From positions 1-58,433 of the forward strand of contig JASHSJ010000002.1 of the NCBI GenBank assembly GCA_030040895.1: a DNA stretch of 58,433 nucleotides. The letters run 5' to 3'. This document shows positions 22,152 through 42,772 of this stretch, in pieces. The position numbers and the translations under genes are program-made. Every line of letters begins with the position of its first letter. Within the stretch, counting starts at the first letter, position 1. Source of the stretch: Microcaldota archaeon (GTDB lineage Archaea; Micrarchaeota; Micrarchaeia; Micrarchaeales; Micrarchaeaceae). The notes under the pieces are model-generated. The model saw only the letters and a list, made by a program, of their open reading frames with translations. It had not been told where the DNA came from and did no database searches.

Positions 22152-23672
22152 ATGGACGCGCAAGATCCAGTTCAGGACAATGACGGCGAGACAAAAGTAC
22201 TGCTGCACTACTCGCTGCTGGCCAACGGGCTGCCCGTCGAGATAAACATAAAGCAGACGAAGGACTTCGTTCCTGGATACAACATTATATTCCCCGGCAT
22301 AGGAACGGCCACGAAGCTCCTGGTATTGTCGCTCAGAAGCGAACTCCTTTCAATGGTGCCCATAGACCCGAGCAAGATCAACGAGAAGGAATACATAGCT
22401 GAACTGACAAGAAAGGTTGCAGCCGCAAGCAGGATCCTGATAGAAAAACACCTTCCGGGAACGAAGAAGGATGTTGAGGACATTCTCGTTGCATACATGG
22501 TAAACATGATGCTGGGCCTGGGAGACCTCGAAGCCCCGCTGGCTGACGAAAACCTTGAAGAGATCGCGGTCAACGGCGCCAGGGAAAACATCTGGGTTTT
22601 CCACAAGACGATAGGCTGGTGCAAGACGAACATAAAGCCGCACAGCGAGGACGCGATATACGACCAGGCGGAGCTAATAGGCAGGAGGGTGGGAAGGGAG
22701 ATAAACAATCTGTCTCCGCTCATGGATGCGGTTCTGTCTGACGGATCTAGGGTGAACGCGACGCTCTTCCCCGTTTCGCAGACAGGAAACACCATAACTA
22801 TAAGGAAGTTCGAGAAAAATCCTTGGACCATGCCTGCCCTAGTAAAAAACGGGACTCTCAGCGCGGAGATGGGTGCGCTTATATGGCTTTGCATACAGAA
22901 TGAGATCAGCCTCCTCATATCAGGAGGCACCGCCAGCGGAAAGACCAGTCTGCTGAACGCCGCATCGATATTCTTCCCCGCGACAAGAAGAATCATATCG
23001 GTGGAGGAAACAAAGGAGCTCTCGCTTCCTAACTTCTTCCAGTGGGTTTCCATGCTGGAGAGGCAGCCTAACCCGGAAGGAAAGGGAGAGGTGAGGCTGT
23101 ACGACCTTATGATAAACGCTCTCAGGCAGAGGCCAGACATAGTTCTGGTAGGGGAAATAAGGACGGCGCAGGATGCGGAAACGCTGTTCGAGGCCATACA
23201 TACTGGCCACGCGGTATACGGGACAGTGCACGCCGACAACGCCCAGGACACTGTACTGAGGATGACAAACCCGCCCATCAGCACGCCAAAGATCCTGCTG
23301 AACGCACTGGGCGGAGTGGTGACTACTTTCAGGCACAGGACAAGAAGCATAAGGAGGGTTTTGGACCTTGCAGAAGTCCTGACAAACGGAGACGTAAATG
23401 TAATATATAGATGGGACCTGAGGAACGATGCATTCAGAAAGCTTGGGGAGCTCACAAGGCTCGTGGACACTATAGAGCTCTACGGAGGCCTCAACAGGAG
23501 GGAGATAGAGGAGCAGGTCGCGGAGAAGGCTGAAATACTCAGATGGATGACCAGGTATTCGGTGATCGGAGTGGACCAGGCTGGATTCCTCGTGTCGAAC
23601 TACTATAGGAATCCGTCTAAGGTGCTCGACATAGTGAGGTACAACACACCATATTCAGACAATTTGTTTTAG
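22152..23672 (+). CDS. FlaI/TadA-type secretion ATPase (GspE superfamily)
   Basis: The 506-residue cytoplasmic ATPase drives assembly of archaeal type IV pili or archaella. An N-terminal domain (about 15-235) precedes the RecA-like core. The core has Walker A GGTASGKTS at 258-266, an Asp-box-type SVEETKEL, Walker B VLVGEIR at 331-337 and the His box TGHAVYGTVHAD at 351-362. The protein should form a hexamer. Two GspF-type membrane platform genes follow in the same operon. Confidence 0.93.
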   Translation: MDAQDPVQDNDGETKVLLHYSLLANGLPVEINIKQTKDFVPGYNIIFPGIGTATKLLVLSLRSELLSMVPIDPSKINEKEYIAELTRKVAAASRILIEKHLPGTKKDVEDILVAYMVNMMLGLGDLEAPLADENLEEIAVNGARENIWVFHKTIGWCKTNIKPHSEDAIYDQAELIGRRVGREINNLSPLMDAVLSDGSRVNATLFPVSQTGNTITIRKFEKNPWTMPALVKNGTLSAEMGALIWLCIQNEISLLISGGTASGKTSLLNAASIFFPATRRIISVEETKELSLPNFFQWVSMLERQPNPEGKGEVRLYDLMINALRQRPDIVLVGEIRTAQDAETLFEAIHTGHAVYGTVHADNAQDTVLRMTNPPISTPKILLNALGGVVTTFRHRTRSIRRVLDLAEVLTNGDVNVIYRWDLRNDAFRKLGELTRLVDTIELYGGLNRREIEEQVAEKAEILRWMTRYSVIGVDQAGFLVSNYYRNPSKVLDIVRYNTPYSDNLF

Positions 23673-23681
23673 GTTGGTATC

Positions 23682-24404
23682 ATGGCAGAAGAGAAAGCAG
23701 AGAAAACGTACAGCGAACTTGCAGCCATGATAGAGAGCGTTGAGGCCGGTTATTCCCCTACTGAGATAGTCAACCTTGATCTTAATGAAATGCTTAAGTC
23801 GGAGCAAAACCCCAATCCAATAAAGTATTCTGACATGCTTGCGATCATAGAGGAGTTCGAGGGTCCGCAAAGGGGGAGTCGCGTGGCGATTGGAAAGCCA
23901 GGAACGACACAGCAGGCATATCAGCAGCCGGCTCAGCAACAGCAGCCTGTTGTGCCACAGGTGCCTCAGCCGCAACAACAGCAACAGCAACCAATGCCAC
24001 AGATAGTGCAGCCGCAGCCAGCCAACGGCAGCGTAGCTCCAAGGGAGAAGCGCAAGATAGCCGCCAAGCTGGAACTTGGCAAGGCTATTGATCAGCTGGG
24101 AGAGCTGGAGGCAGAGATAAAGATGAGGTCAATAAGCACTGATGATCTGGTACTGCCCAATCTATCCGTGCCAGACCAGATATCAGAACTGGAAAGAATC
24201 ATAGAAGGGCTTAGGACCGGAGTGTTTGACAAAGACCATCTTGATACGGTAAGGCAGGAGCTGCAAGGACTCGACAAGATAGTCCAGCTGCAGAAAGCCA
24301 AGATGAAAGTATCGGGAAGGGCGGGAGACAGCGAGGAGATAATGATACGTGACCAGAGGCTCAAGAGTGCGCTTGAGCTGCTCAGGCAGCAGGGTGTTAG
24401 ATAG
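23682..24404 (+). CDS. Pro/Gln-rich linker protein of the pilus operon
   Basis: The 240-residue soluble protein has a helical N-terminal domain (about 1-62), a Gln/Pro-rich disordered middle (about 75-112) and a helical, charged C-terminal half. No family is recognised. It lies 9 nt after the ATPase gene, and its stop overlaps the GTG start of the GspF-like gene (TAGTG), so expression is coupled. The next protein also has a Pro/Gln-rich N-terminal tail, so the two may contact each other or the ATPase. Confidence 0.7.
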   Translation: MAEEKAEKTYSELAAMIESVEAGYSPTEIVNLDLNEMLKSEQNPNPIKYSDMLAIIEEFEGPQRGSRVAIGKPGTTQQAYQQPAQQQQPVVPQVPQPQQQQQQPMPQIVQPQPANGSVAPREKRKIAAKLELGKAIDQLGELEAEIKMRSISTDDLVLPNLSVPDQISELERIIEGLRTGVFDKDHLDTVRQELQGLDKIVQLQKAKMKVSGRAGDSEEIMIRDQRLKSALELLRQQGVR

Positions 24405-25612
24405 TGGCGTGGTTCTCCAAGAAAAAGAAGGTCATTGAGGTAGGAGGAAAGAAGATAGAGCTAGAGCCAAAGCCATCGAGGATCGGTTTTCTGGGCTTTG
24501 GCAGGAAGCCGCGGGCCCAGCAGGCAGCACAGCCAACGCCGCAGCCGCAGATCAAGGTGCCGCAGCCAGAGCAAAAAATAAACTTCAACCTTCCGTTCAG
24601 CAAGAATCAAGAACCGCAGGCAGGTGCAGCACCGCAACAGAAACCGGCGCAGCAACCCGCATCTGGCGAGTTGCAGGTGCCGCAGCCAAAGCTGGAAATA
24701 CCGAAGCTGGTCGTGCCAAAAGTGCAGCAAGAAAGGCAGAGACCGCCTGCCGTTCCCGCCGGCAAGCGGCAGACTGGCAATTTCCTTGACAACTATCTTG
24801 CAGGCGCATTGGCGGGGCAGAAGAATCTCCCGAACCTGCTCAGGGAGGAAGGGATAGCCGGAACTCCATTGCAGTTTGTGCGCAGGATGTTTACAGCCGC
24901 GCTGATGATCGCCACTGTCATAACTGTGGTATTTGCGGCGCTGCTCAGCATAGCGGGAGTGGATATACTTGAAACTGTGGTACTTGCCGTGATGATGGGC
25001 GTGGCGTCTTACGGCATAGCATTCAACCTGTTCCTGCAGTATCCAGCCGCAAAGAGGGCAAGAAGCGCGAAGATCATAGAACGCGATATATTGTTCGCAG
25101 CAAGGGACATGATAATATCACTTAGATCAGGAATGCCGCTGTTTGATGCAATAAAGGCGGTCAGCACTGGATACGGAGATGCAAGCAAAGAATTTTCGAA
25201 GATAGTAGAGAAGGCGCAGTTCAGGGTGCCGCTTGACGAGGCTATAGATTCGACCATTTCGGAGTCAAAGAGCCCGTCGTTCAAGAAGATAATGCTGCAG
25301 GCATCGGTCAGCATAAGAGCGGGGGCAGACGTCGTCGCGGCGCTGCAGGCGGTCATAGACCAGCTGCAGCAGGAGAGGATCATTGAGCTGAGGGCGTACG
25401 GCCAGAAGCTAAACGCGCTGGCGATGTTCTACATGCTTTTCGGCGTCATACTGCCAAGCATGGGAATAGCGGTGCTTACAATACTGACGACTTTCATAGC
25501 GATATTCACGGTCAATACTACGCTTCTGGGGCTGATGATAGCTTTCATATTCATAGTACAGCTTGTATTTCTCAGGCTGATAGTAGCATCAAGGCCGGTA
25601 TTTGCTTTGTGA
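24404..25612 (+). CDS. GspF/FlaJ/TadB-type membrane platform protein with P/Q-rich tail
   Basis: The 402-residue protein starts at GTG 24404. Residues 1-130 are a basic, Pro/Gln-rich cytoplasmic tail. Two membrane helices (about 163-205) precede a T2SSF domain with the typical DMIISLRSGMPLFDAI helix, then two more membrane segments at the end. T2SSF proteins form the inner-membrane base acted on by the ATPase. The next gene is a second member, as in TadB/TadC. Confidence 0.86.
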   Translation: MAWFSKKKKVIEVGGKKIELEPKPSRIGFLGFGRKPRAQQAAQPTPQPQIKVPQPEQKINFNLPFSKNQEPQAGAAPQQKPAQQPASGELQVPQPKLEIPKLVVPKVQQERQRPPAVPAGKRQTGNFLDNYLAGALAGQKNLPNLLREEGIAGTPLQFVRRMFTAALMIATVITVVFAALLSIAGVDILETVVLAVMMGVASYGIAFNLFLQYPAAKRARSAKIIERDILFAARDMIISLRSGMPLFDAIKAVSTGYGDASKEFSKIVEKAQFRVPLDEAIDSTISESKSPSFKKIMLQASVSIRAGADVVAALQAVIDQLQQERIIELRAYGQKLNALAMFYMLFGVILPSMGIAVLTILTTFIAIFTVNTTLLGLMIAFIFIVQLVFLRLIVASRPVFAL

Positions 25613-29522: not shown

Positions 29523-32195
29523 CTACGGCGGCGCTATTGAAGCCCCGCACGTGCCTTCGACTGAATTAATCTGCGTGCACAGTATGCCATTGGTGTAGAA
29601 CACGCCGTAGTCGTTTGTGCCTATCACCGAGGTCGTATTGAGCGCGCCAAGATACTGGCTGCTTAGCGGCCATATGAAATTGGCTGGAACGCCGGTTACG
29701 CTGTTGTTGAGGTAGAGCTGCGTCATCTGCGCGTTTGTGAGCGGCTGGTTGAACACCTGGAAGTCTGATGTGTATCCGGAATAGTACGTGTTGGAACCGC
29801 AGTTAGTAGTTGCGGTTCCGCCAAGCTGATACAGCAGCGAGTTGCCGGGCGTACCAGGCACGCTGCTGGATAGCGACGATATCGTATTCTGGCCAACCGC
29901 GCCGTTGATCATTACGCTGCTGGTTGAACCTGACACCAGGTTCGCGGTATACACTATATTTGTCCACGCATCCACCGGAACGTTTCCCTCGAACTTGCAC
30001 GTGGATGCCGGAGTCCAGTACAATCCGCCGTCGTAGAGCTCGAGCCTGGACTTGCTCCACGGCGTTGATTTGTTGAACGATGACAATATCACGCCGTTAT
30101 TTGAGAGCGGATATATCCACAAGGATACGCTATAGCTCTGTATCCCGTTGTTCGGCCAGGTAAGCGAATACTTGTTCGTTATATAGCTGTTTGTGCCCGG
30201 CTGGAAGAACGCCAGAGAGCTAATCACCGCGTTCTGAACTCCGAAAGCCTGCCTTTCATTCTCTATAAGCCCTGATGGAAGCGCTTCCAGCGAGGCATTG
30301 CTCAGGTACAGGTGCGGGGCAGTGTAGTTCATGCACTGGTTTATGTTGAGGCAGTTCATTACTCCCATGACCTCACTGACGTTATAGTTCGGATATTGCA
30401 TGCCGCTCAGCACAGGGTCCCCGGTGTAGTTTGCAGCATAATAATATACAACGTTGTTCTGTACCCCGTTGTAGTTGTTGCCGCTGTAATCGTTTGGATT
30501 GCCGGTCAGCGGCCAGTCCCCTACCAGATGCAGAGTGTCTACTGGATAGCCGAAGAGCCCTCTCGTATATGCTTTCTGTAGTTTGTAAAGCGGCACAGCG
30601 TAGTCATACAGCTGCACATCGGCTATCTTGCCGCTGAACCATGACATTGATCCGGAAACAGTCCCGCTGCCTATATTCATGACGTGCACGCTGTTCGCGA
30701 ACATCGGAGTGTTTGTCGGATAGGTGCCGCTGACCGGAGGGCCTCCGTTTATCTCTATGAAATAGCCGTTGGTGGTGAACTCCAGGCCCACATTGTACCA
30801 GACTCCCGCCTGGAAATTGAATGGCGCGTTTGCGTTGGTTGTTATGGAGTTCGTACCCGTTCCTATGCTCGCCCTGATTCCGTTGAATCCGCATGAGCCG
30901 CCTCCGCAAAGCCTCACATCAAACGAATTGGTGCTCGGCTGCAGCGTGCTTATCAGCGGCGCGTCGAACGATGTTGCGTAGCCCTTGTCGCTCTGGAACC
31001 AGAAGCTTAGGGCGAAGTTGCCGGTAAGGCTCAGTGTGTTCGATACTACTATGTTGGCATTGCCGCCGTTGAAATGCGGAACCGAATATGCGGCACTGGC
31101 GAGCGTGAATATCCCGTAAGGCGACCTTGAATGGTACGTATTTTGCGCCCTGTCGAGATACGCTGGAGTATAGTTGGACCCGTAGTAAGTGCCTGAAATC
31201 ACGGCGCTCTGCAGCGCGCTAAGATTCAGCAGCTCCAGCTGCGGTCCGTCGAGCAGCACCTGGGTCCCGTTGGACAGGCTGTTGAATATGTATGAATTGG
31301 AAGAGAATACTAGGTATGGGACTACTGGCAGATTCGAATTCGCGGATGTAGTTATCAGCCCACCGAAGCCGCACGCGTTGGTCTGTATGTTAACCGCGTT
31401 GTATACTGCCAGTATGTAGTATTGGTTCATGTATGTATTCGAGCCAATGGCTGCGCATGTTGGCTTTGCTCCGGAAGAGCCGGCAACTATGACAGTGCCG
31501 GCTATCGACATGAATGGCGATGTGCTTCCGGTGTCTGCTCTCCCCTGCCCGACAACAAATGCCTGCGGTATGATTCCGGTATTTATCGTGGACCGCAGCC
31601 CCTGCAACAGCGGATACGGACTCGCAGTCCCATTTATCACAACGCTTGAGACAACTGACATAGGATAGGAAAAGCTGCCTTGCGGAGTCGCGGCAGTGAC
31701 CAACGCGCTGTAATTCGCCGTAACCAGGAATGGCCCGCTCTGGTACACTCTTAGGCTGGTGTTCGAGAAGCTTATTGATATCTGCTGTGCTGCGAGCTGC
31801 TTTGTGGTCGAGTTTATGTATCCGGATATGGTGGCCCCCTTCATTATCCACGGCATCCTGACGCCGTAATAGCTGCCGTTCAGCATCATCGATTCGAGAA
31901 AGCCCGGGGTATTGTTCATCTCGTACAGGGTTCTCAGCGAAGAATTAGAATTGTATGATGTTAGGGCGTATATGGCCTGCTGCAGGCTGGTGTGCAGGAA
32001 CCCCTTCGTGTTCTGGGTCAGCGTGGAGACGCTGAACGACTGTGTCAGTGCGCTCGCCTGCGCTGCCTGCAGATTGTCATACGATATGTTGACTACAACA
32101 TACGCGATCACTGACCCGAGCATCACCACGAACACTATTATTGTAAGGAGGGTGAGCAGCACTCCCTTGCTGTAGCCAAACTTTTTCATCGCCAT
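29523..32195 (-). CDS. Giant pilin-like protein with two LamG (concanavalin-like) domains
   Basis: The 890-residue protein has a short basic N-terminus (KKFGYSKG) and a hydrophobic helix (about 12-35). A pilin-like helical region is followed by two LamG/ConA-like lectin domains (about 365-545 and 640-850), each showing SLWIYPLS/SFWFQS-type strands. LamG folds bind sugars or proteins. The start may be ATG 32195 or ATG 32189; the latter overlaps the upstream stop as ATGA. It belongs to a tightly packed run of pilin-leader genes. Confidence 0.78.
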   Translation of the reverse strand: MAMKKFGYSKGVLLTLLTIIVFVVMLGSVIAYVVVNISYDNLQAAQASALTQSFSVSTLTQNTKGFLHTSLQQAIYALTSYNSNSSLRTLYEMNNTPGFLESMMLNGSYYGVRMPWIMKGATISGYINSTTKQLAAQQISISFSNTSLRVYQSGPFLVTANYSALVTAATPQGSFSYPMSVVSSVVINGTASPYPLLQGLRSTINTGIIPQAFVVGQGRADTGSTSPFMSIAGTVIVAGSSGAKPTCAAIGSNTYMNQYYILAVYNAVNIQTNACGFGGLITTSANSNLPVVPYLVFSSNSYIFNSLSNGTQVLLDGPQLELLNLSALQSAVISGTYYGSNYTPAYLDRAQNTYHSRSPYGIFTLASAAYSVPHFNGGNANIVVSNTLSLTGNFALSFWFQSDKGYATSFDAPLISTLQPSTNSFDVRLCGGGSCGFNGIRASIGTGTNSITTNANAPFNFQAGVWYNVGLEFTTNGYFIEINGGPPVSGTYPTNTPMFANSVHVMNIGSGTVSGSMSWFSGKIADVQLYDYAVPLYKLQKAYTRGLFGYPVDTLHLVGDWPLTGNPNDYSGNNYNGVQNNVVYYYAANYTGDPVLSGMQYPNYNVSEVMGVMNCLNINQCMNYTAPHLYLSNASLEALPSGLIENERQAFGVQNAVISSLAFFQPGTNSYITNKYSLTWPNNGIQSYSVSLWIYPLSNNGVILSSFNKSTPWSKSRLELYDGGLYWTPASTCKFEGNVPVDAWTNIVYTANLVSGSTSSVMINGAVGQNTISSLSSSVPGTPGNSLLYQLGGTATTNCGSNTYYSGYTSDFQVFNQPLTNAQMTQLYLNNSVTGVPANFIWPLSSQYLGALNTTSVIGTNDYGVFYTNGILCTQINSVEGTCGASIAPP

Positions 32196-34714
32196 ACAAC
32201 CACGCTCACGTTGTATTCCGCGCTCTGCCCAGTTATGTTAAGCAGAACAGTTGCTGATGCCCTGCTGACCTGTGTGGATGCGAGCAGCGTAGGAGGAATA
32301 AAGTTCATACTTCCGTATGCTATGTTGCTCGGGAATGCGGTGTTGAACAACCCGCCGTAATCGTTAGTATCTCCTTCGAGAGGCCAAAATCCTACTAGCG
32401 GCTGGCCGGAAATCGGCTGGCCTGCAATGCCGGATTGATACAATGACAGTATCTGGTTTGTTGATAAGGATGTGTTGTAGAACTGCACTCCTGTTATCGT
32501 GCCGTTCATGTAGCCGTATGATCCATAGGATCCGCCTATGTATAGGGGCCCTACGGGGGCTGACAGGCTCAGTGGCACGTTGCACACTAGGCTGCCATTC
32601 ACATACAGCAGTACTTTCGATGAAGCCAATTCCTCCGTAACGAAGTACCACTGGTTGAAATTATAATTTGACGGACTTGAACATGCCTGCGATGATCCTC
32701 CGCTTATTGTGTTCACTGCGAAGTCCATTTGCGTCGCAGTAGTCCAAACTCCGGCCGGTATGGCTTCAAGCGCTATCGCTGAGCCGCTGCCGCTTGGCGC
32801 TTCCCATATCTGGTCGCCGAGAGAACCTGAGGCCGGGTTCTTGCTCATCGGCACCACGTTTACCCATCCGCTTATGGTAAGCGCGTTGTACGATGACATC
32901 GCGGTATTTGACGACTGCACCGACAGCGATGAACCGCCAGGGGCATTGAACCTAGCGAGGTCGAGCGAAGACGCATACTGGTTGTTTATGAACATTCCTA
33001 TCCTGCCGCCTGGATACAGAACGCTGAATATCTTGTTTGCGCAGGCTGCCTGTCCCCTCACGTACATCTCGGCGAGCGCGGCCAGCACGCTTTGCTGCGG
33101 GTCCGCCTTGCACATGCCGAATGCGTACAGCGTGTTTCCGACTACGACGTAGGCATTGCCATAAGCAAGCGCCACGTCCCCATACTGATGCGACACCTGG
33201 CTTGACGGAAGCGTGAGATTCCACATCGGTGCGCCACCCTGCTGCTGGAATCCCTGCAGGACATTGCCTGACAGCGCGTATATTATCTGGCTAAGCGCCG
33301 GCGTGACGTTGTAGTTGTTTGTTGGCGTTTTCGCGGATAGCAGCTGCACAGAGTTTGAAGATGTAGTGAACCCGTATATTCCGTTCGAGGTCTGCGCGTA
33401 GGCCGCGAGCCCGTCTGTTGCCACGCCTCCCACGAAATTAGCGCTTAGCTGCCTGACCCACATTATGGTCCCACCCGAAGAGATCATGTACATGTAGCTG
33501 CCGCTTTCGATTATGCTGAAGTTGGCCGCAGCTGCGGGTATTGTAGAGACCGTGTTTCCGAACCTCCCCTTCGCCGTCCATACGTTAGTCAGGACCGTGG
33601 GTCCCAGCACGTATCCACCGAACAGCGCGTTTGAACTCGTGGTTCCATTGTAGGCGCCGTAGAAAATTCCTGATGAGTATGCAAGCGTTGCCTCGTATGC
33701 CCCAGATCCGGACGGATATTTTGATGTTGGAACCTGCAACACCTCCTGCCACTGGCTGAGCTGGCCAGATACGGTGTCCTTTACAACGACGAAGAAGGTG
33801 TTTGCAGGAGGAGTTACCGGCGTTACAGTAAGCGAAGTTCCTGAGCCTAGCGCATTGGTGGTGCACGCTGCGAGCGCAGTAGAGTTGAGCGGCAATGATA
33901 CGCACTCATACAAAGTCAGCGCGTTGTTTGAAGTGTATTTGTAGACGTAGCTGTCAGGAGCGCCTGTTATGACAGGCCCTATGGCTCCGTCTATCCCGCC
34001 TATATTCAGAACTGGACCACCTCCAACCGGGGTGCCGTTCATTGGATAGAGCAGCATAGACTGGCTCTGCAAATACCCTCCTTCTATTGTCAGCGGCGAA
34101 GTCTGCACGTAGGTTGAACCGGGGCTTCCACCAGGCCTGACAAATGTTGACCATACCAGAGAATTAGACTCGCTTATGGCATTGAGGTATCCGGCAGTAT
34201 TGGCAGTTATTATAATGTGATTGTAGAATACTGGACCGGTCGAGAACGGCCCTCCGAGCAGCGTGTTTACGACTACGGCGCCGGTTGTGGCGTTGATACC
34301 GTAGAGCCTCGACGAGCCGATGCCAGCGTTCGTGGTGAAGAATACCATACCATCTGCAACAACTGGATTCGGATATATCGTGTTTGGCGCGGCAAACTGG
34401 AACATCAGGTCAGGACCGACCGGCGCAAACGAATACGTGGATGAATTCAGGGCCCCGTTCTGCCCGTACTGCGGCCAGGAATACTGCGATGATGCAAACC
34501 CCAGGGTGGCAAAGCTTGCGTACTGGACGTTCTGCGATATCTGACCCATCGTGGTCTGCGACATTGTCTGCAGCACGCTGTACGCAGTTGATGCGCTCGC
34601 CTGATACGATGCCGGGGCTATGTAATATGAATAAACGAGTATCGTCACCGCAGCGCTGGCTACTATGAGCGAGAAGATCGCATCAGTAGTAAATATGAAG
34701 CCCTTCATTTGCAT
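32186..34714 (-). CDS. Giant pilin-like protein with PQQ-type propeller and LamG domain
   Basis: The 842-residue protein begins MQMKGFIFTTDAIFSL, a short leader plus a hydrophobic helix. Residues about 95-530 have PQQ/quinoprotein-like propeller repeats (VADGMVFFTT, LYGINATTGAV, LNAISESNSLVWS). A LamG lectin domain covers about 600-760 and is followed by WPLEGDTNDYGG. The start is ATG 34714 or GTG 34717, directly after the preceding stop. It overlaps the next gene by a few bases, so translation is coupled. Confidence 0.78.
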   Translation of the reverse strand: MQMKGFIFTTDAIFSLIVASAAVTILVYSYYIAPASYQASASTAYSVLQTMSQTTMGQISQNVQYASFATLGFASSQYSWPQYGQNGALNSSTYSFAPVGPDLMFQFAAPNTIYPNPVVADGMVFFTTNAGIGSSRLYGINATTGAVVVNTLLGGPFSTGPVFYNHIIITANTAGYLNAISESNSLVWSTFVRPGGSPGSTYVQTSPLTIEGGYLQSQSMLLYPMNGTPVGGGPVLNIGGIDGAIGPVITGAPDSYVYKYTSNNALTLYECVSLPLNSTALAACTTNALGSGTSLTVTPVTPPANTFFVVVKDTVSGQLSQWQEVLQVPTSKYPSGSGAYEATLAYSSGIFYGAYNGTTSSNALFGGYVLGPTVLTNVWTAKGRFGNTVSTIPAAAANFSIIESGSYMYMISSGGTIMWVRQLSANFVGGVATDGLAAYAQTSNGIYGFTTSSNSVQLLSAKTPTNNYNVTPALSQIIYALSGNVLQGFQQQGGAPMWNLTLPSSQVSHQYGDVALAYGNAYVVVGNTLYAFGMCKADPQQSVLAALAEMYVRGQAACANKIFSVLYPGGRIGMFINNQYASSLDLARFNAPGGSSLSVQSSNTAMSSYNALTISGWVNVVPMSKNPASGSLGDQIWEAPSGSGSAIALEAIPAGVWTTATQMDFAVNTISGGSSQACSSPSNYNFNQWYFVTEELASSKVLLYVNGSLVCNVPLSLSAPVGPLYIGGSYGSYGYMNGTITGVQFYNTSLSTNQILSLYQSGIAGQPISGQPLVGFWPLEGDTNDYGGLFNTAFPSNIAYGSMNFIPPTLLASTQVSRASATVLLNITGQSAEYNVSVVVWR

Positions 34715-34717
34715 CAC

Positions 34718-35280: not shown

Positions 35281-38139
35281 TCACACCGGTATCGTAATCC
35301 TTGCGGTTGGAGGCAGACCCGCTGAATACAGCTGCTGTATCTGCGTGGTGGAAAGCACTCCGTTGTAAACTTGCGCATCCAGAACGCTGCCGTTCATGTA
35401 CTCGGAACCTGTGCCTGAATAGCCTATCTTCCATCCGGTGCTCTGCGATGATATGGTAAGGGTGTTGTAGCCTATTGCTACGCCGTTTACATACACTATC
35501 TCCACGCCAGATCCAACCGTTGCCATCACCATATACCACTGGCCCGGATTCAGGCTGTACGAAAATATCGTATTTGCACTGTCGCTCCAGTCGTGGAAGC
35601 AAAGCTGCAGCTTGGTACCGCAGGTTCCCACGCCATACGCGCCATACTTGGCCATCAGCCAGTTGAACTTTGCGCCAGAAGCCGAGGTCGCCGGCCCATT
35701 ATATCTGACCCATCCTCCGAACGTCACAGATGATAACTTGAGCGACGCGGCATTCGGAATGCTCACGTAGCTGGAGGCGGCCGGGCTGAACACCGGAAAC
35801 GCAGACTGGTTTACCTGCTTTGCGAGGCTTACCGCGGTATTCTGGAATGCTACGCCAGATCCTACGCTCGCCGGATTATTGTTTTTGCTGAAGTCGCTGC
35901 CGCTGCCGTCGAGGGGCCACCATCCAACCAAGCCAGCATTGTCCAGCGGAGCCCCCGATATTCCCTCACCGACAAGATAGTTTATCTGCGTCTGGTTGAG
36001 AGACGTGGAGTAGAGCTGCACATTGGTTATCATGCCATTGAACACTCCTGTTCCGGCAGACCAAGGAGTGCTGCCTATTGTGAAGCTGTTAGTCCCTCCT
36101 ATCAAAAGCCCTGGGGATAGGTCGGATTCGCTCACGAGAGTCTGGTTCAGGTAAGCAGCAGCGATTCCGCTCTGGCCATTGTATTCTGCAGTTATCATGA
36201 CCCAGTTGCCAGTGGTTAGCAGCGGTATGGTGCACAGGCCAAGCGAGCCCAGTGCCTTCTGATTCACATACATTATATTGCACTCGCTCGGGTCGTTGGC
36301 CAGCACCGCGAATCCGTCGGCCGGGCCCGTCCTATCATTTCCGCCGTCGCCGAAAATTGCAGATGTGCCGCCCGACCCTGGGCCAGCCTCGTTTATCCAA
36401 GTCACCACCGTGAAGCTGTCATTCTGCAGCAGCGCATTGTAGGCGCTTATCTGCGATATTGTTGCATAGTTGCTGGACGATGAGGTGCCGGGGAACTTCG
36501 CAGGCGAAAGGCTGGTGCTGTTGACCGACTTGCTCCATGCAAGGTTGGATGCGGTGCCGAAATTGTAACCTCCGCTGAGGTCATGTATTATGTTCCCGGT
36601 TCCCTCGTTCAGTGGCCACCATCCTGTGAGATTCGATACTGTGGTAAGGTTGCCGTTGAATCCTACGGCAGTTACTGTTATCGCATTCGTAGTTCCGTTC
36701 GAGTCAAGGAATATGGTTGCCTGGCCAGGCGGATCGCCGGCCGTATTGTTGTTGAAGCTGAACGTTATCGCGTTTTCATCAGAGTACGAATAGCCGTTGG
36801 CTGGAGTTGTTGCAGGCCTTGGCCCCGGATTGAATATGGCTACGCTGGACAACACACCAGCAGTAGAATATGCGCCAGCGAAGTACTGCCCGAACGGCGA
36901 CAATGAATAGGAGTTGCCGAACGTTGATCCCAATACCTCAAGCTGTGCTACGGTCCTGAACCTTGCCAGGTAGGGGGTCGCGGAGTTACCGAATCCGGAA
37001 TAGTCAAGCGTGTCTCCATTGAGCTTGTACCATAGGCTGACATTGCCTATGTTTATGGGCGCCCCGTTTATGCCCTCCTTGTAAAGACCGGCTATCTGGG
37101 CAGTTGAGAGTGATGCGTTGTATATCTGAAGGTTTGTTATGCCAAGCCCCGGGGAGAGCGAGCTTGCCATGCCGGAGTATACGCTGCCCACGTTTACTCC
37201 TACGCCTATCTCGTTCGTGCCAAGATTATTCTCTCCCTGAATGCCCACGCCGGTCTGGCTCAGGTTGTCAAGGTAGAAATTGTATGTTCCTGTCTGGTAG
37301 CCACAGCCGCTGCAGCTGACTCCTATAAAAACCCAGGGGCCCATCGGCGCGTTGGTTGGAGGGTTTGTCTGGTATACCTCGCCGTAAAGCTGGTTCGTCA
37401 CGTTTATGCTCATGCCGTAGTTCTGCGACAGCGACAGCTTGTACGAATTTCCCAGCAGCGTATTTCCCTCGCTGTAGACCACCGCATTGGTTGCTATGGC
37501 ATTAGACGCCACCCACGCGGTAAGCGTGTACGAGGAAGCGTAGTCTATGGGCGCATTTCCTGGAAGGGTGGCGTAGATGTAGTTGACGTTGTTGAATGAC
37601 GCGTATTCGGTTATCTTGGGGTTTCCGAACCATATGTTGCCCAGCTGCGTGCCCGTGGGAAATGGCTTTTCATCGACGTATATGGTTCCTTGCTGGTTGT
37701 ATACGCTAACTCCACCGGAATACGTCTGGACCGAGTACAGTATTATGTTGTTTGAACTTCCGAGCAACGCAGTGCCGTTGATTATGAGGTTTCTTACTCC
37801 GCTGAAGCTCTCCGCGGATATAACCTGGCTGCCAAGCGTCTGGTTCACTATCACTATTCCTGTGCTCGTTATTATTATGTTATAGGGAGATGCCCCTGCC
37901 GGCTCAGTTATCAGTATGGTAGTGTTGTAGCCGTTTCCCGCCGCAAGCGCCTGGTTGAGCGTCTGCGATATGCTCTGGGCAACGAGCTGCAGGTAAGAAT
38001 AATCCTGCTCATTCAGTGTGGCAGCCCTCTGGTTTACCACAAGTGCGAAGAGGAAGACGAATATGACAAGCACGAAGGAATACACGACTATGAATTCTAT
38101 CGCTATCTGCGCTCTGGTTCCCCCCTCCATCAAATCCAT
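35281..38139 (-). CDS. Giant class III signal-peptide protein with three LamG domains
   Basis: The 952-residue protein has the leader GGTRAQIAIEFIVVYS and hydrophobic helix (about 10-36), an extended pilin-like helix to about 65, then three LamG/ConA-like domains (about 190-350, 500-690 and 770-945). They are punctuated by motifs LWYKLNGDTLDYSG, LTGWWPLNEG and VGWWPLDGSGSDFS. It heads the minus-strand run and ends 2 nt before the small pilin gene. Likely an adhesin or minor pilin at a filament tip. Confidence 0.8.
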   Translation of the reverse strand: MDLMEGGTRAQIAIEFIVVYSFVLVIFVFLFALVVNQRAATLNEQDYSYLQLVAQSISQTLNQALAAGNGYNTTILITEPAGASPYNIIITSTGIVIVNQTLGSQVISAESFSGVRNLIINGTALLGSSNNIILYSVQTYSGGVSVYNQQGTIYVDEKPFPTGTQLGNIWFGNPKITEYASFNNVNYIYATLPGNAPIDYASSYTLTAWVASNAIATNAVVYSEGNTLLGNSYKLSLSQNYGMSINVTNQLYGEVYQTNPPTNAPMGPWVFIGVSCSGCGYQTGTYNFYLDNLSQTGVGIQGENNLGTNEIGVGVNVGSVYSGMASSLSPGLGITNLQIYNASLSTAQIAGLYKEGINGAPINIGNVSLWYKLNGDTLDYSGFGNSATPYLARFRTVAQLEVLGSTFGNSYSLSPFGQYFAGAYSTAGVLSSVAIFNPGPRPATTPANGYSYSDENAITFSFNNNTAGDPPGQATIFLDSNGTTNAITVTAVGFNGNLTTVSNLTGWWPLNEGTGNIIHDLSGGYNFGTASNLAWSKSVNSTSLSPAKFPGTSSSSNYATISQISAYNALLQNDSFTVVTWINEAGPGSGGTSAIFGDGGNDRTGPADGFAVLANDPSECNIMYVNQKALGSLGLCTIPLLTTGNWVMITAEYNGQSGIAAAYLNQTLVSESDLSPGLLIGGTNSFTIGSTPWSAGTGVFNGMITNVQLYSTSLNQTQINYLVGEGISGAPLDNAGLVGWWPLDGSGSDFSKNNNPASVGSGVAFQNTAVSLAKQVNQSAFPVFSPAASSYVSIPNAASLKLSSVTFGGWVRYNGPATSASGAKFNWLMAKYGAYGVGTCGTKLQLCFHDWSDSANTIFSYSLNPGQWYMVMATVGSGVEIVYVNGVAIGYNTLTISSQSTGWKIGYSGTGSEYMNGSVLDAQVYNGVLSTTQIQQLYSAGLPPTARITIPV

Positions 38140-39468: not shown

Positions 39469-39861
39469 ATGAGACTGCTATTGAACGCAAGGCGTGTGAT
39501 AGAGGCGATAGCGCGGATTTCGATGCCGTTGGCCATGATGCTGCTGATCCTCATCAGGCCGGCGTATGGCGCTGTGATGTATTTCCAGGTGACCCCCGAG
39601 CTTGACCAGGTCAAGGCCGTGCTCTCGAGCGTTGGCCCGTCGCTGAGCGGAATACTGTTCGTGGTGGCAGGCATAATGTATGCGATAGGCCAGATGCTGC
39701 CGCCGGAGAAGAAAGCGCAGTTCCATACAACCGCGGTCAATATAATAATAGGTGCCATAGTAGTCGGTGTTCTAAGCGTTGCCTCGACGTCCCTCTCCAT
39801 AGCCACCTCGCACCTCCTGAACAACGTAACGGTAAACAGCACCGTCAACAGCACGGGATGA
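39469..39861 (+). CDS. VirB2/TrbC-like pilin subunit
   Basis: From ATG 39469 the protein is 130 residues: an N-terminal signal-like helix ending near PAYGA (about residue 35), a short loop, then two hydrophobic helices (about 55-74 and 88-115) split by a charged PPEKKAQF turn. This is the shape of VirB2/TrbC pilins of type IV secretion systems. Sequence similarity is weak, so the call rests on topology and on the VirB4-like ATPase in the same operon. The frame reaching back to 39325 includes the promoter and is not supported. Confidence 0.62.
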   Translation: MRLLLNARRVIEAIARISMPLAMMLLILIRPAYGAVMYFQVTPELDQVKAVLSSVGPSLSGILFVVAGIMYAIGQMLPPEKKAQFHTTAVNIIIGAIVVGVLSVASTSLSIATSHLLNNVTVNSTVNSTG

Positions 39862-39865
39862 GAAA

Positions 39866-40918
39866 TTGGCATTTGCTGGTTATGACATAGGCATGAGTTT
39901 GATAGCGATAATGCTTGCAGTGGCTGGGATACTGCTGGGGCTGGGGTACGCGCTCGGTGACAAGAGGCTCAAAGAGTTTGGAATGTCGGAGCTTTATCAG
40001 TCACTGATAAACGCTGCTATACTTGGATCACTGATACTCGCTTTCGGGCCTTCCGGGATCATAACGAATACGATAAATTCGCTAAGCGCTGGAGTACAGC
40101 CGCAGTCCTGTTCCGCGTATTTTGATGGAAACTCCGCGCTGTGCTTCTCGTACGCTTACCTTGCTGGAAACACGACGGTTCAGGTATACAACAACACTGT
40201 GCTCTCCTTGAGGACATCCACTGCGGGGATGCTGGTAGCATCCTCGGGGCTGTACATACTGATAGGCACGCTGGCTTCTGTAAAAGTCGAGGCCGGGTTC
40301 ATAGCGTTCGGGCTTCAGGGTCTCACGGTTTTCATGGGTCCGCTCAAGGCAATAACGGACTTCCTTACCTTTGCAATCCTGTCCATAATAGCGCAGGCTG
40401 TTATACTCAAGTTCATAGGTGTCACTGCAATCTCCACGCTGCTGCCCGTCGGACTTGTACTCAGGACGTTCTACTTCACTAGGGCTCTCGGAGGCTCGAT
40501 AATAGCCATTACCATAGGATTTTTCGCGATATTGCCAATGACGTACGTAATGGGGGCGATAATGCTCAACGACTTCTCCGGATATAACCAGGCCCAGCTG
40601 TTTGCAAATGCGGACAGCGCGCTCAGCTCGACATCATCGGGATCAGCCGGCGGGCTGGCTGATGGCTCGCTGAGCTCAATCCCGTCAAATCCCAACTCCA
40701 TAACGATAGGCACGGTAGCCAGCATAAGCGCGCTGCTAGAAGGGGCATCCAACGCCCTCTCCTCGCTCATAGACTATGTTGGCGACGCAATAGCATTCAT
40801 AGTGCTGCAAGTATTCCTGTTGCCCACAATGTCACTGATACTCACAGTAATATCAATAAGGGAGCTGGCGAGGCTGCTTGGTTCCGAAATCACATTCGGG
40901 AGGTTTGACGTGTTCTGA
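39866..40918 (+). CDS. Polytopic membrane protein, VirB6/TrbL-like candidate
   Basis: The 350-residue protein has about seven hydrophobic segments and an extracellular-like loop with two Cys and N-glycosylation sequons (QPQSCSAYFDGNSALC) near residues 75-90. VirB6/TrbL proteins form the inner-membrane core of type IV secretion systems. Position between pilin and VirB4-like genes supports the role; sequence alone does not prove it. The start is TTG 39866 or ATG 39893. Its stop overlaps the next start (TGATG). Confidence 0.6.
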   Translation: MAFAGYDIGMSLIAIMLAVAGILLGLGYALGDKRLKEFGMSELYQSLINAAILGSLILAFGPSGIITNTINSLSAGVQPQSCSAYFDGNSALCFSYAYLAGNTTVQVYNNTVLSLRTSTAGMLVASSGLYILIGTLASVKVEAGFIAFGLQGLTVFMGPLKAITDFLTFAILSIIAQAVILKFIGVTAISTLLPVGLVLRTFYFTRALGGSIIAITIGFFAILPMTYVMGAIMLNDFSGYNQAQLFANADSALSSTSSGSAGGLADGSLSSIPSNPNSITIGTVASISALLEGASNALSSLIDYVGDAIAFIVLQVFLLPTMSLILTVISIRELARLLGSEITFGRFDVF

Positions 40919-41658
40919 TGCAAATCAACAAGAACAAACTGCTGATGATGGCCGTGATTTTGCTAGAGATGGCCCTGACGGTTGCAGCGGTGTTTACGCT
41001 GAATGCGCTGCTTATCGTTGCGGCGCTGTGTGCGCTGCTGCTCCTCTTCTTTTTCTACAAGATGGGATACATAATAGAGGACTTCCTGTTCGTCCGCACG
41101 GGAATAGTCGAGGTCATAGGCCCGTACGAACTCTCGGGCAGCAGGAACTCGGCCTTCAGAAGGCTTGGAAGCGGGTTCAGCTGCATTGCGGTTGCGCTTC
41201 TAGAAGTCAACAACCATGATGAAGTGGACAGGAAGAAGATAGAAAATATCATAGCTCACTCTGGACATGCATTCAGGTTCGTCATGCAGGCGCGAAGGCA
41301 GGATATAAGCGGAATCACTGACGGGCTAAGGACGGGCATAAGTTCGCGCGAGATCCGGCTCGCTAGGCTGGGCAATTCGAAGAAGGATACGCAAACCGGC
41401 GAGCGCATAAGGCGGGAAATCGAGGTAATGAGGAACGACCTCAGGAGCATGGAGCAGGGAGAAGCGCCGATGGAGCTCATGTACTATCTCTGTGCAAGCG
41501 CGGAATCGGAGAGCGCCTACGCGGCTGAAGAAAGCGCGATATCGCACATCAGGGAACTCTCAAGCCAATTCGACGCCCTGCTCGGATCAAGGTCTAGAAT
41601 CCTGTCCGGCAGCGAGCTGGCGGATGTCATCTCGCTAGACGTGACGATGAAGCGGTGA
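40918..41658 (+). CDS. Membrane protein with soluble domain, T4SS-like operon
   Basis: The 246-residue protein has two close hydrophobic helices at about 8-50 (VirB3-like size), then a soluble alpha/beta region of about 190 residues with many Arg/Glu. The soluble part could match the N-terminal domain of VirB4/TrbE ATPases, here split from the ATPase made by the next gene. That reading is inference from order and size. It starts in a TGATG overlap with the previous gene and ends 4 nt before the next. Confidence 0.55.
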   Translation: MQINKNKLLMMAVILLEMALTVAAVFTLNALLIVAALCALLLLFFFYKMGYIIEDFLFVRTGIVEVIGPYELSGSRNSAFRRLGSGFSCIAVALLEVNNHDEVDRKKIENIIAHSGHAFRFVMQARRQDISGITDGLRTGISSREIRLARLGNSKKDTQTGERIRREIEVMRNDLRSMEQGEAPMELMYYLCASAESESAYAAEESAISHIRELSSQFDALLGSRSRILSGSELADVISLDVTMKR

Positions 41659-41662
41659 TACC

Positions 41663-42772
41663 TTGAAGATATCAAATTCAAAAATAGCTGGCTCGAAGAT
41701 TGCATTCCTTGCGATGTCAGAACCTAGATCATCGCTCTCCGGAGTGCTGGTAGGCCAAACATCTGTATACGGGAGCCATTTCTTCCTCGACAGCACGGCG
41801 TTGCTGAACAGGCACTTGGCCGTAATAGGCATGACGGGCAGCGGGAAAACCTATTTCTTGAAGAGCTACGTAACTAGATGCGTATCGCTAAAGGAATCAT
41901 CCTTGCTTGTCATCGACTGGAACGGCGAATACAGCGAGATGGTGGAATTCCTGGGCGGCAGGATTACCATGATATCGCGCGCATCGGAGCCCGAGATTGC
42001 GGCCGCGATGAATCTCAATGGAATATGCAGCGTATCATTCTCCGACATAAAAGACGACAGGGAGAAGAAGCTAGCCGGAGCCATTGCCATCAGGCTCATA
42101 GTCGACATGCTGCACAACATGGAAATAGACAACAGCAGGGAGCGCATAATACTGATCGATGAGGCGTGGAAGATAATAGGCGAAGATTCTCCTGTCATAC
42201 AGCTGTTCAGGGAGGGCAGGAAGTACGGGATATCAATATGCATAGCCACACAGCTTGTAAACGACATATTGAACGCCATAATAGCAAACTGCGCTTGCAT
42301 AGCGTTGTTCCGGCTGCAGATCCCCGATGACTACCAGTCGCTCGTATCATCCGGCATAATAAGTCAGGGAGAATGTGTGGCGCTGTCTGCGCTAAGGATG
42401 GGGGAATGCATGTTCCACATGGCGCGCAAGGACGGCGGAGGCACGGGAAATTTCATAATAAGAAGGGCTTTCGGGGTGTCAAACAAAAAACTCACGGTTA
42501 TTGGTGTCGCCATGAGATACGAGGTAACTGAGAAAAGGCTGGGAGATTCATTGCGCACGTTCACGGAGCCCGCAGTCGCGGCCAAGATAATGGATTACAT
42601 TATCTCGCACGGCTGGAGGGTGAGTTCAACGCAGCTCATAACAAAGATGGCTGAGCTGGGCCTGGAGCGCAAGGACGTAGTGCCTATCCTGAGGGCGTTC
42701 GGGGTAGATGACATAGAAATAGTCAGGTCCTACGAATCAGCGAAGGGCACGATAATAAACATTGAACGCTGA
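41663..42772 (+). CDS. VirB4/HerA-like transport ATPase
   Basis: The 369-residue ATPase has Walker A GMTGSGKT at 56-63 and Walker B LIDEAW at 164-169, the DEAW form typical of VirB4/TraC-type ATPases, plus a later ATQ sensor (SICIATQLVND). VirB4 proteins power pilus assembly and substrate transfer. HerA (DNA-end processing) is the main alternative, but no NurA lies nearby and the neighbours are membrane proteins. The start is TTG 41663 or ATG 41714, with an in-frame stop just upstream. A C-terminal helical domain follows the core. Confidence 0.82.
   Translation: MKISNSKIAGSKIAFLAMSEPRSSLSGVLVGQTSVYGSHFFLDSTALLNRHLAVIGMTGSGKTYFLKSYVTRCVSLKESSLLVIDWNGEYSEMVEFLGGRITMISRASEPEIAAAMNLNGICSVSFSDIKDDREKKLAGAIAIRLIVDMLHNMEIDNSRERIILIDEAWKIIGEDSPVIQLFREGRKYGISICIATQLVNDILNAIIANCACIALFRLQIPDDYQSLVSSGIISQGECVALSALRMGECMFHMARKDGGGTGNFIIRRAFGVSNKKLTVIGVAMRYEVTEKRLGDSLRTFTEPAVAAKIMDYIISHGWRVSSTQLITKMAELGLERKDVVPILRAFGVDDIEIVRSYESAKGTIINIER

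Follow-up and report, generated by a model that had tools for sequence, protein, structure and literature searches.

A Micrarchaeota operon predicted to encode a Ced-like machine related to type IV secretion systems, with VirB4 divided between two proteins

We describe four tightly packed genes, here genes 1 to 4, in a 58,433-nucleotide stretch of archaeal DNA (the window, contig C6 of a 764-kb genome in 34 contigs that is 92% complete), and we find that they very probably belong to a machine related to type IV secretion systems (T4SS). Their products are a VirB2-type pilin, a polytopic membrane protein with a VirB6-like fold, and two proteins that together resemble a single VirB4. We propose that the four genes are likely the front half of a chromosomal T4SS-like machine working in the manner of the Ced and Ted DNA-transfer systems. 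The nearest relatives are metagenome-assembled genomes of Candidatus Micrarchaeota, including the complete chromosome of Ca. Micrarchaeum sp. A_DKE (locus L129), and the source archaeon is very small and probably lives attached to other archaea.

Components encoded by genes 1 to 4

The product of gene 1 matches the Pfam families TrbC (PF04956, E=3.3e-4) and T4SS_pilin (PF18895, E=5.5e-4), and so do most of its orthologs (24 of 28 match PF18895, with a best E of 4.8e-7, and 23 of 28 match PF04956). When aligned with hhalign, the gene 1 profile also matched VirB2 of MPF_T plasmids (P=1.7e-4 over 53 columns), and it found no match among PDB chains. A hydrophobic, signal-like N-terminal segment ending near AYGA is followed by two transmembrane (TM) helices, which are linked by a GQMLPPEKKA loop of net positive charge; the loop pattern GQ-x5-[KRQ][KRQ]A is present in 80/80 pilins. 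Judging from the NxT/NxS sequons that it carries, the C-terminus would lie outside the cell and the loop inside.

Gene 2 gave nothing meaningful against Pfam, NCBIfam, or PDB sequences, and no sequence relatives outside Micrarchaeota. Its AlphaFold2 model, built from 75 sequences, has a mean predicted local distance difference test score (pLDDT) of 83 and a predicted template modeling score of 0.76, and Foldseek returned a best E of only 1.2. Structural re-alignment with VIA-align of the 682 chains proposed by Foldseek placed three VirB6/TrwI chains of the R388 T4SS at the top (8rtd_L, 7o3v_F, and 8rt9_F), with Z values of 8.6, 8.4, and 8.3 over 230-232 residues and a root-mean-square deviation of 5.2-6.0. 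These alignments cover the model from residue 1 to 334-337, and most of the rows that follow align just 55-70 residues. Profile comparison by hhalign with VirB6 of MPF_T and PrgH of MPF_FATA gave no signal, a test that is uninformative because these two known VirB6 groups miss each other too. On the basis of the modeled fold, we regard the assignment of gene 2 as a VirB6-type polytopic protein as supported.

The model of gene 3 (mean pLDDT 92) consists of two TM helices followed by a mixed alpha/beta domain. The 13 best Foldseek matches are all VirB4/TrwK (prob 0.97-1.00, E 1e-3 to 7e-2), and VIA-align superimposes residues 68-245 on VirB4 residues 221-376, the part of the N-terminal domain (NTD) that lies ahead of the ATPase domain (Z 11.9). 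In agreement with this position, the window protein aligns to residues 148-221 of the 590 in the NCBIfam CedB model, directly ahead of the ATPase domain; that model matches 3 of 27 gene 3 family members, with a best E of 1.3e-3. The TM hairpin that opens gene 3 occupies the position of VirB3/PrgI, and VirB3 profiles gave no match to it by hhalign.

Gene 4 encodes a Walker A motif (GMTGSGKT, residues 56-63) and a Walker B motif (LIDEAW, residues 164-169) whose DEAW tetrad, at 166-169, has D166, E167, and W169 invariant in 71/71 orthologs. The protein matches DUF87 (PF01935, 1.6e-14), P-loop_TraG (PF19044, 1e-8), and, as its best NCBIfam match, CedB (2.5e-17), along with CedD (1.4e-15); the CedB model is matched by 28/28 orthologs (best 2.4e-25). 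By hhalign, gene 4 aligns with VirB4 of MPF_FATA (prob 97.9) and MPF_T (prob 95.7). Its size is typical of the order, in which 60 of 71 orthologs have fewer than 400 residues. A minority of orthologs (L034, L036, L040, L045, and L050) have an extra 75-100 residues after about residue 105, without counterpart in the window protein.

Since gene 3 has the fold of a VirB4 NTD and gene 4 is a VirB4-type ATPase, we read the two as one VirB4 in two pieces. We strongly favor the view that they act as one VirB4, and they would presumably form one complex. Neither protein accounts for the first half of the VirB4 NTD; gene 5 of related operons (see below) was considered as its source and found no profile support with hhalign. 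Among the phylum matches, no fused gene 3-gene 4 open reading frame (ORF) was certain: two long frames contained stops, and an 816-aa frame at locus L175 was matched by the ATPase profile alone.

These results bear on an earlier note on this DNA, which had read it as a type IV secretion-like operon of an archaeon. The Micrarchaeota relatives agree with the archaeal origin, and the four genes are packed as the note described, with gaps of 4 nt between genes 1 and 2 and between genes 3 and 4 and a 1-nt overlap of genes 2 and 3. The VirB2-shaped pilin that it proposed is upheld by the Pfam and VirB2 matches, the polytopic VirB6-like protein by a structural match over the whole model, and the DEAW-motif VirB4-like ATPase by its Walker motifs and its CedB, CedD, TraG, and VirB4 matches; with the NTD of gene 3, they carry the T4SS-like reading as a whole. 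Its two-TM protein with a soluble domain has the architecture described, and is better seen as the N-terminal part of a split VirB4 than as a separate accessory subunit. The outcome that the note had set against its own reading, a HerA-type ATPase among membrane proteins of non-T4SS fold, did not appear, as gene 3 led to the VirB4 NTD and gene 2 to VirB6.

Conservation, the rest of the operon, and a paralogous cluster

Genes 1 to 4 occur in one order and on the same strand in 27/27 of the relative loci first collected around gene 4 matches. An independent set of 80 loci, obtained by scanning a contig collection of genomes with the pilin alignment, holds all four genes in the same order and strand in 75 cases, the remaining 5 being cut by contig ends. 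Given this constancy, genes 1 to 4 are not chance ORFs. As a query, gene 4 found orthologs in most relatives of the same order; a scan of the genome contig collection with gene 4 alone gave no match. Intergenic gaps are mostly within 20 nt across loci, and the one between genes 3 and 4 never exceeds 14 nt (70 loci). The pairwise identities of genes 3 and 4 also covary most closely (r=0.86 versus 0.69-0.73 for other pairs), and the pilin has the highest mean pairwise identity (0.49 versus 0.29-0.40 for the other genes).

Our survey of the phylum sampled 245 genomes, 131 of them in the window's order, where a hand count found a strong gene 2 match (E<1e-40) in about 94. Locus L161, from the window's own family, shares this gene order and has an ATPase of 397 aa. 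Other orders of the class have divergent pilin, VirB6-like, NTD, and ATPase operons (L153, L155, and L156) or the same gene order with no pilin detected (L154 and L163), and the ATPases of these divergent operons are about 500 aa long. Loci L157 and L158, from other families of the class, have a short pilin and a VirB6-like gene near each other with no NTD or ATPase genes nearby; in L157, one opposite-strand ORF separates the two. At locus L195 (genome G006), a fragmentary second gene 4 and gene 5 lie near a transposase-like ORF and resemble a decaying duplicate.

In most relatives, the operon runs on for about five further genes, to about nine in all. Gene 5, a soluble protein, overlaps or abuts gene 4 in most of them (59 loci by ORF calling and a further 7 by profile). 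Next comes a protein of 150-270 aa, usually with a TM segment; many loci then have one or two small membrane proteins, and a second ATPase of about 670-750 aa (gene 9) lies 1.2-2.5 kb past gene 4. A single query found this ATPase in 49 of the 77 loci with enough room; its closest match among the plasmid sets is VirB4 of MPF_FATA (P=3.3e-5), with VirD4 more distant (P=0.035).

In the genome of the window, gene 5 does not follow gene 4. A gene 5 family member is instead found on the minus strand of contig C1, followed by proteins of 215 aa (one TM), 65 aa (two TM), and 111 aa (three TM) and a 636-aa ATPase; relatives have these genes in this order after gene 4 (Table 1). We considered this cluster as a third system and rejected that idea, because its synteny identifies it as the detached half of the operon; genome G019 has its operon split likewise. 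Among the relatives searched, a strong gene 5 match accompanies possession of the operon, and relatives that lack the operon have only a more distant match belonging to a larger, second cluster. Therefore, since the gene order of relatives continues and the same genes lie on C1, the four-gene appearance reflects a broken operon and not a minimal machine, and the earlier note's description of a minimal four-gene operon does not stand. Apart from genes 5-9, the genes flanking the operon are not conserved.

The second cluster, on contig C2 of the same genome, carries a pilin-like gene (PF18895, E=3.2e-3) and six consecutive VirB6-like genes. It also encodes two 277-aa proteins like the VirB4 NTD that match gene 3 (1.7e-15 and 9.8e-20), a 504-aa VirB4/HerA-type ATPase that matches gene 4 (7.7e-69), and a gene-5-like gene. 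A reading of this ATPase as a canonical HerA was rejected, since its VirB6-like and NTD-like neighbors place it in a second T4SS-like cluster. The layout recurs in other genomes: it is complete in L176 and L177, no ATPase ORF was called in L178, and the copy in L179 (genome G003) is truncated where the locus ends and carries an insertion; in that copy, a 419-aa transposase-like ORF lies between the VirB6-like and NTD genes. Several large, secreted-looking proteins (250-1284 aa) are encoded directly upstream of the C2 pilin-like gene. Profile matches to gene 2 were found in 220 and to gene 3 in 222 of the 245 phylum genomes. Much of this total must come from the larger cluster, which is apparently near-universal in the phylum.

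Table 1. Positions of the operon genes, their detached counterparts, the paralogous cluster, and other features mentioned in the text
Feature	Sequence	Positions	Strand	Start, length	Description
Gene 1	Window	39469..39861	+	ATG, 130 aa	VirB2/T4SS-type pilin
Gene 2	Window	39866..40918	+	TTG, 350 aa	VirB6-like polytopic membrane protein, CedA/TedA position
Gene 3	Window	40918..41658	+	ATG, 246 aa	Two-TM hairpin and second half of VirB4 NTD
Gene 4	Window	41663..42772	+	TTG, 369 aa	HerA/VirB4-superfamily ATPase, probable motor part of split VirB4
Gene 5 family member	Contig C1	14084-14764			E=1.6e-21
Detached second half	Contig C1 (L143)	11078-14764			Gene 5; 215-aa, 65-aa, and 111-aa proteins; 636-aa ATPase
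Second T4SS-like cluster	Contig C2 (L167, L144)	54200-69326			Same genome
Transposase-like ORF	L179	14297-15556			In larger cluster
Decaying duplicate (apparent)	L195	4198-5257			Partial gene 4 and gene 5
Type IV pilus locus	Window	22152-25612	+		T2SSE ATPase, T2SSF membrane protein
Lectin-domain protein	Window	29523-32195	-		Candidate adhesin
Lectin-domain protein	Window	32186-34717	-		Candidate adhesin
Lectin-domain protein	Window	35281-38139	-		Candidate adhesin

Relation to known systems and alternative explanations

Ced, from Sulfolobales (CedA1, CedA, CedA2, CedB, CedD, and CedE), and Ted, from Thermoproteales (TedC, TedA, and TedB), are chromosomal archaeal systems with VirB2-, VirB6-, and VirB4-type proteins and no relaxase (PMC9905601, PMC11868833). 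Ced works with a pair of VirB4-like ATPases, CedB and CedD, and the NTDs of the two correspond to separate portions of a single VirB4 NTD (PMC11868833). The operon in Micrarchaeota has in common with Ced and Ted one VirB2-type pilin, a VirB6-type pore, VirB4-type motors, a chromosomal location, and the lack of a detected relaxase, and gene 9 of its relatives parallels CedD. Unlike Ced and Ted, it encodes VirB4 as two proteins, is normally followed by five further genes, and belongs to a different archaeal phylum; the motor part is 369 aa, compared with the 590 positions of the CedB model. Among bacterial systems, a close parallel is the PrgF/PrgH/PrgI/PrgJ region of pCF10 (MPF_FATA, Gram-positive conjugative plasmids), likewise a single-membrane T4SS, where PrgF (small, two-TM), PrgH (VirB6-type), PrgI (VirB3-type, two-TM), and VirB4 follow the order of genes 1 to 4. 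In contrast to it, the operon is not plasmid-borne, has a split VirB4 and a true VirB2-type pilin, and lacks neighboring genes for a relaxase, VirD4, or a cell-wall hydrolase. The T4SS of Patescibacteria also belongs to an episymbiont lineage, is chromosomal, has VirB2-like pilins, and mostly lacks a relaxase (PMC12102498), but is bacterial and differs in its VirB4, which is reported to be one protein and to fall in the MPF_FATA clade, and in its pilin arrays in place of one pilin. Nanohaloarchaeota, also host-dependent DPANN, encode VirB4/TraG-like ATPases by giant surface proteins, proposed as secretion motors (PMC10266531); there a giant adhesin carries the ATPase domain as a fusion, with neither pilin nor VirB6 described, and no such fusion is seen in the Micrarchaeota operon.

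In the machine that we propose, the gene 1 product would, after export and cleavage, build a thin pilus of the VirB2 type, and gene 2 would form a platform or pore in the single membrane. The TM hairpin of gene 3 may anchor the complex while its soluble part supplies the VirB4 NTD, with gene 4 as the ATPase. In relatives, the operon also encodes a soluble product, a second VirB4-like ATPase, and as many as three smaller membrane proteins; here, the genes for these lie on another contig. ATP hydrolysis could then power pilus assembly and the passage of a polymer between cells, most likely single-stranded DNA, as in Ced and Ted. DNA transfer is our best-supported guess because the operon shares the Ced/Ted traits of VirB2, VirB6, and VirB4 types and two VirB4-like ATPases; the chances that DNA is the main substrate are evenly balanced, and import rather than export is somewhat doubtful.

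Several points weigh against this interpretation. The gene 1 product falls under the curated Pfam cut-offs (20.4 versus 26.6 bits and 21.3 versus 27.9), and no sequence comparison connects gene 2 with VirB6. Z values of 8-9 are modest for a helical protein by the standard of the tool itself, which is why our call on gene 2 uses fold, length, operon position, and rank jointly. Gene 4 scores 62.7 bits against a CedB equivalog cut-off of 700, a cut-off that no protein in a genome-wide search exceeded, and we therefore call the system Ced-like and not Ced. Unlike Ted loci, the operon is not adjoined by homologous-recombination genes. By the hand count, about 37 of the 131 sampled genomes of the order have no strong gene 2 ortholog, so the operon copy is dispensable to some lineages. 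Pilus and transfer alike are predicted from genes and modeled structures.

The earlier note had asked for relaxase and coupling protein genes, and neither was found. The VirD4 coupling protein (PF02534) had no match in the 92% complete genome (5/14 controls positive), and PF03432, the sole relaxase family tested, had none in the genome either (1/14 controls positive); viral contigs held no related loci. By these tests, the operon is not a conjugative element. The window operon encodes no VirB8, VirB10, VirB11, or other scaffold parts, for which no genome-wide search was made. It is very unlikely that the genes serve for transfer of an integrated conjugative element or a plasmid. Conjugative plasmids do make up 229 of the 261 tblastn matches of gene 4 in a plasmid collection, but the operon is chromosomal, with exosome and ribosomal protein genes as neighbors, and is conserved across most of an order. 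Still less credible, to the point of being negligible, is the idea that gene 4 is a HerA-type DNA-repair translocase beside unrelated membrane genes. VirB4 and HerA form one superfamily, and DUF87/HerA models score well on gene 4. However, genes 1 to 4 stay together wherever contig ends allow, gene 3 has the VirB4 NTD fold, and gene 1 matches T4SS pilins. In addition, the P-loop starts at residue 56, leaving little room for the HerA N-terminal barrel, and the neighbors of gene 4 are membrane proteins and a VirB4 NTD, not those of a HerA-NurA arrangement.

A role where symbiont and host meet is a serious alternative to DNA transfer, given that the CedB equivalog cut-off is missed and that these organisms depend on hosts. 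The same machine might move proteins or effectors into the archaeal host, or nutrients out of it, although we consider this unlikely. Protein-exporting T4SS usually keep a coupling ATPase, and the operon is accompanied by no candidate effector gene, as only genes 5-9 are conserved around genes 1 to 4. On the other hand, cultured Micrarchaeota depend on an archaeal host (PMC5498576), the absence of VirD4 and PF03432 matches fits co-option, and T4SS without relaxase in Patescibacteria are proposed to be co-opted (PMC12102498). Protein nanotubes of unidentified make-up connect ARM-1 with its host, but these emanate from the host and not from the symbiont (PMC11329633). A surface pilus for attachment or sensing, with a motor that only assembles pilin and translocates nothing, would fit with the pilin being the best-conserved gene and with L157 and L158, which keep pilin and VirB6-like genes without an adjacent ATPase gene; nevertheless, a VirB6-type pore and two VirB4-type ATPases exceed the needs of a static pilus, and the window already holds a separate archaeal type IV pilus locus, making this explanation improbable. 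More tentatively, and on balance doubtful, the compact operon (split VirB4 and a second VirB4-like ATPase) and the phylum-wide cluster (six VirB6-like and two VirB4-NTD genes per ATPase) may represent two families of paralogous T4SS-type machines without a described counterpart, which jointly could give the symbiont a channel through which DNA or other polymers pass into and out of host cells.

Neighboring genes and implications

The Ced-like transfer machine that we favor has several surface-related genes in its vicinity. The type IV pilus locus lies at a distance of about 14 kb; for cell contact, the Ced system of Sulfolobales requires a type IV pilus (Ups). Beside the operon, on the opposite strand, three large proteins with laminin-G/concanavalin-like lectin domains are candidate adhesins, and the one nearest the operon has an N-terminus that is pilin-like or class III-type.

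In the open-access literature on Micrarchaeota and DPANN with CedB, VirB4, VirB6, or type IV secretion, we found no description of this system, although open-access coverage cannot prove novelty. In the paper on Mia14, type IV pili and Sec/Tat appear among the secretion systems, and laminin-G proteins and "potential conjugative elements" are also listed, with no VirB names given (PMC5498576), and the report of protein nanotubes between a Micrarchaeota relative and its host assigns no gene to them (PMC11329633).

It is still debated how host-dependent DPANN archaea pass material to and from their partners, and a conserved T4SS-type machine offers a named gene set for this question. If our interpretation is right, Ced/Ted-like transfer machines would extend from Crenarchaeota to a DPANN phylum, and the operon would provide an example of a VirB4 whose domain part and motor part are encoded as separate proteins. 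The presence of the operon in the lineage of Ca. Micrarchaeum sp. A_DKE, which has a complete genome, opens it to study there, and it is through this operon that these symbionts may exchange material with their neighbors.

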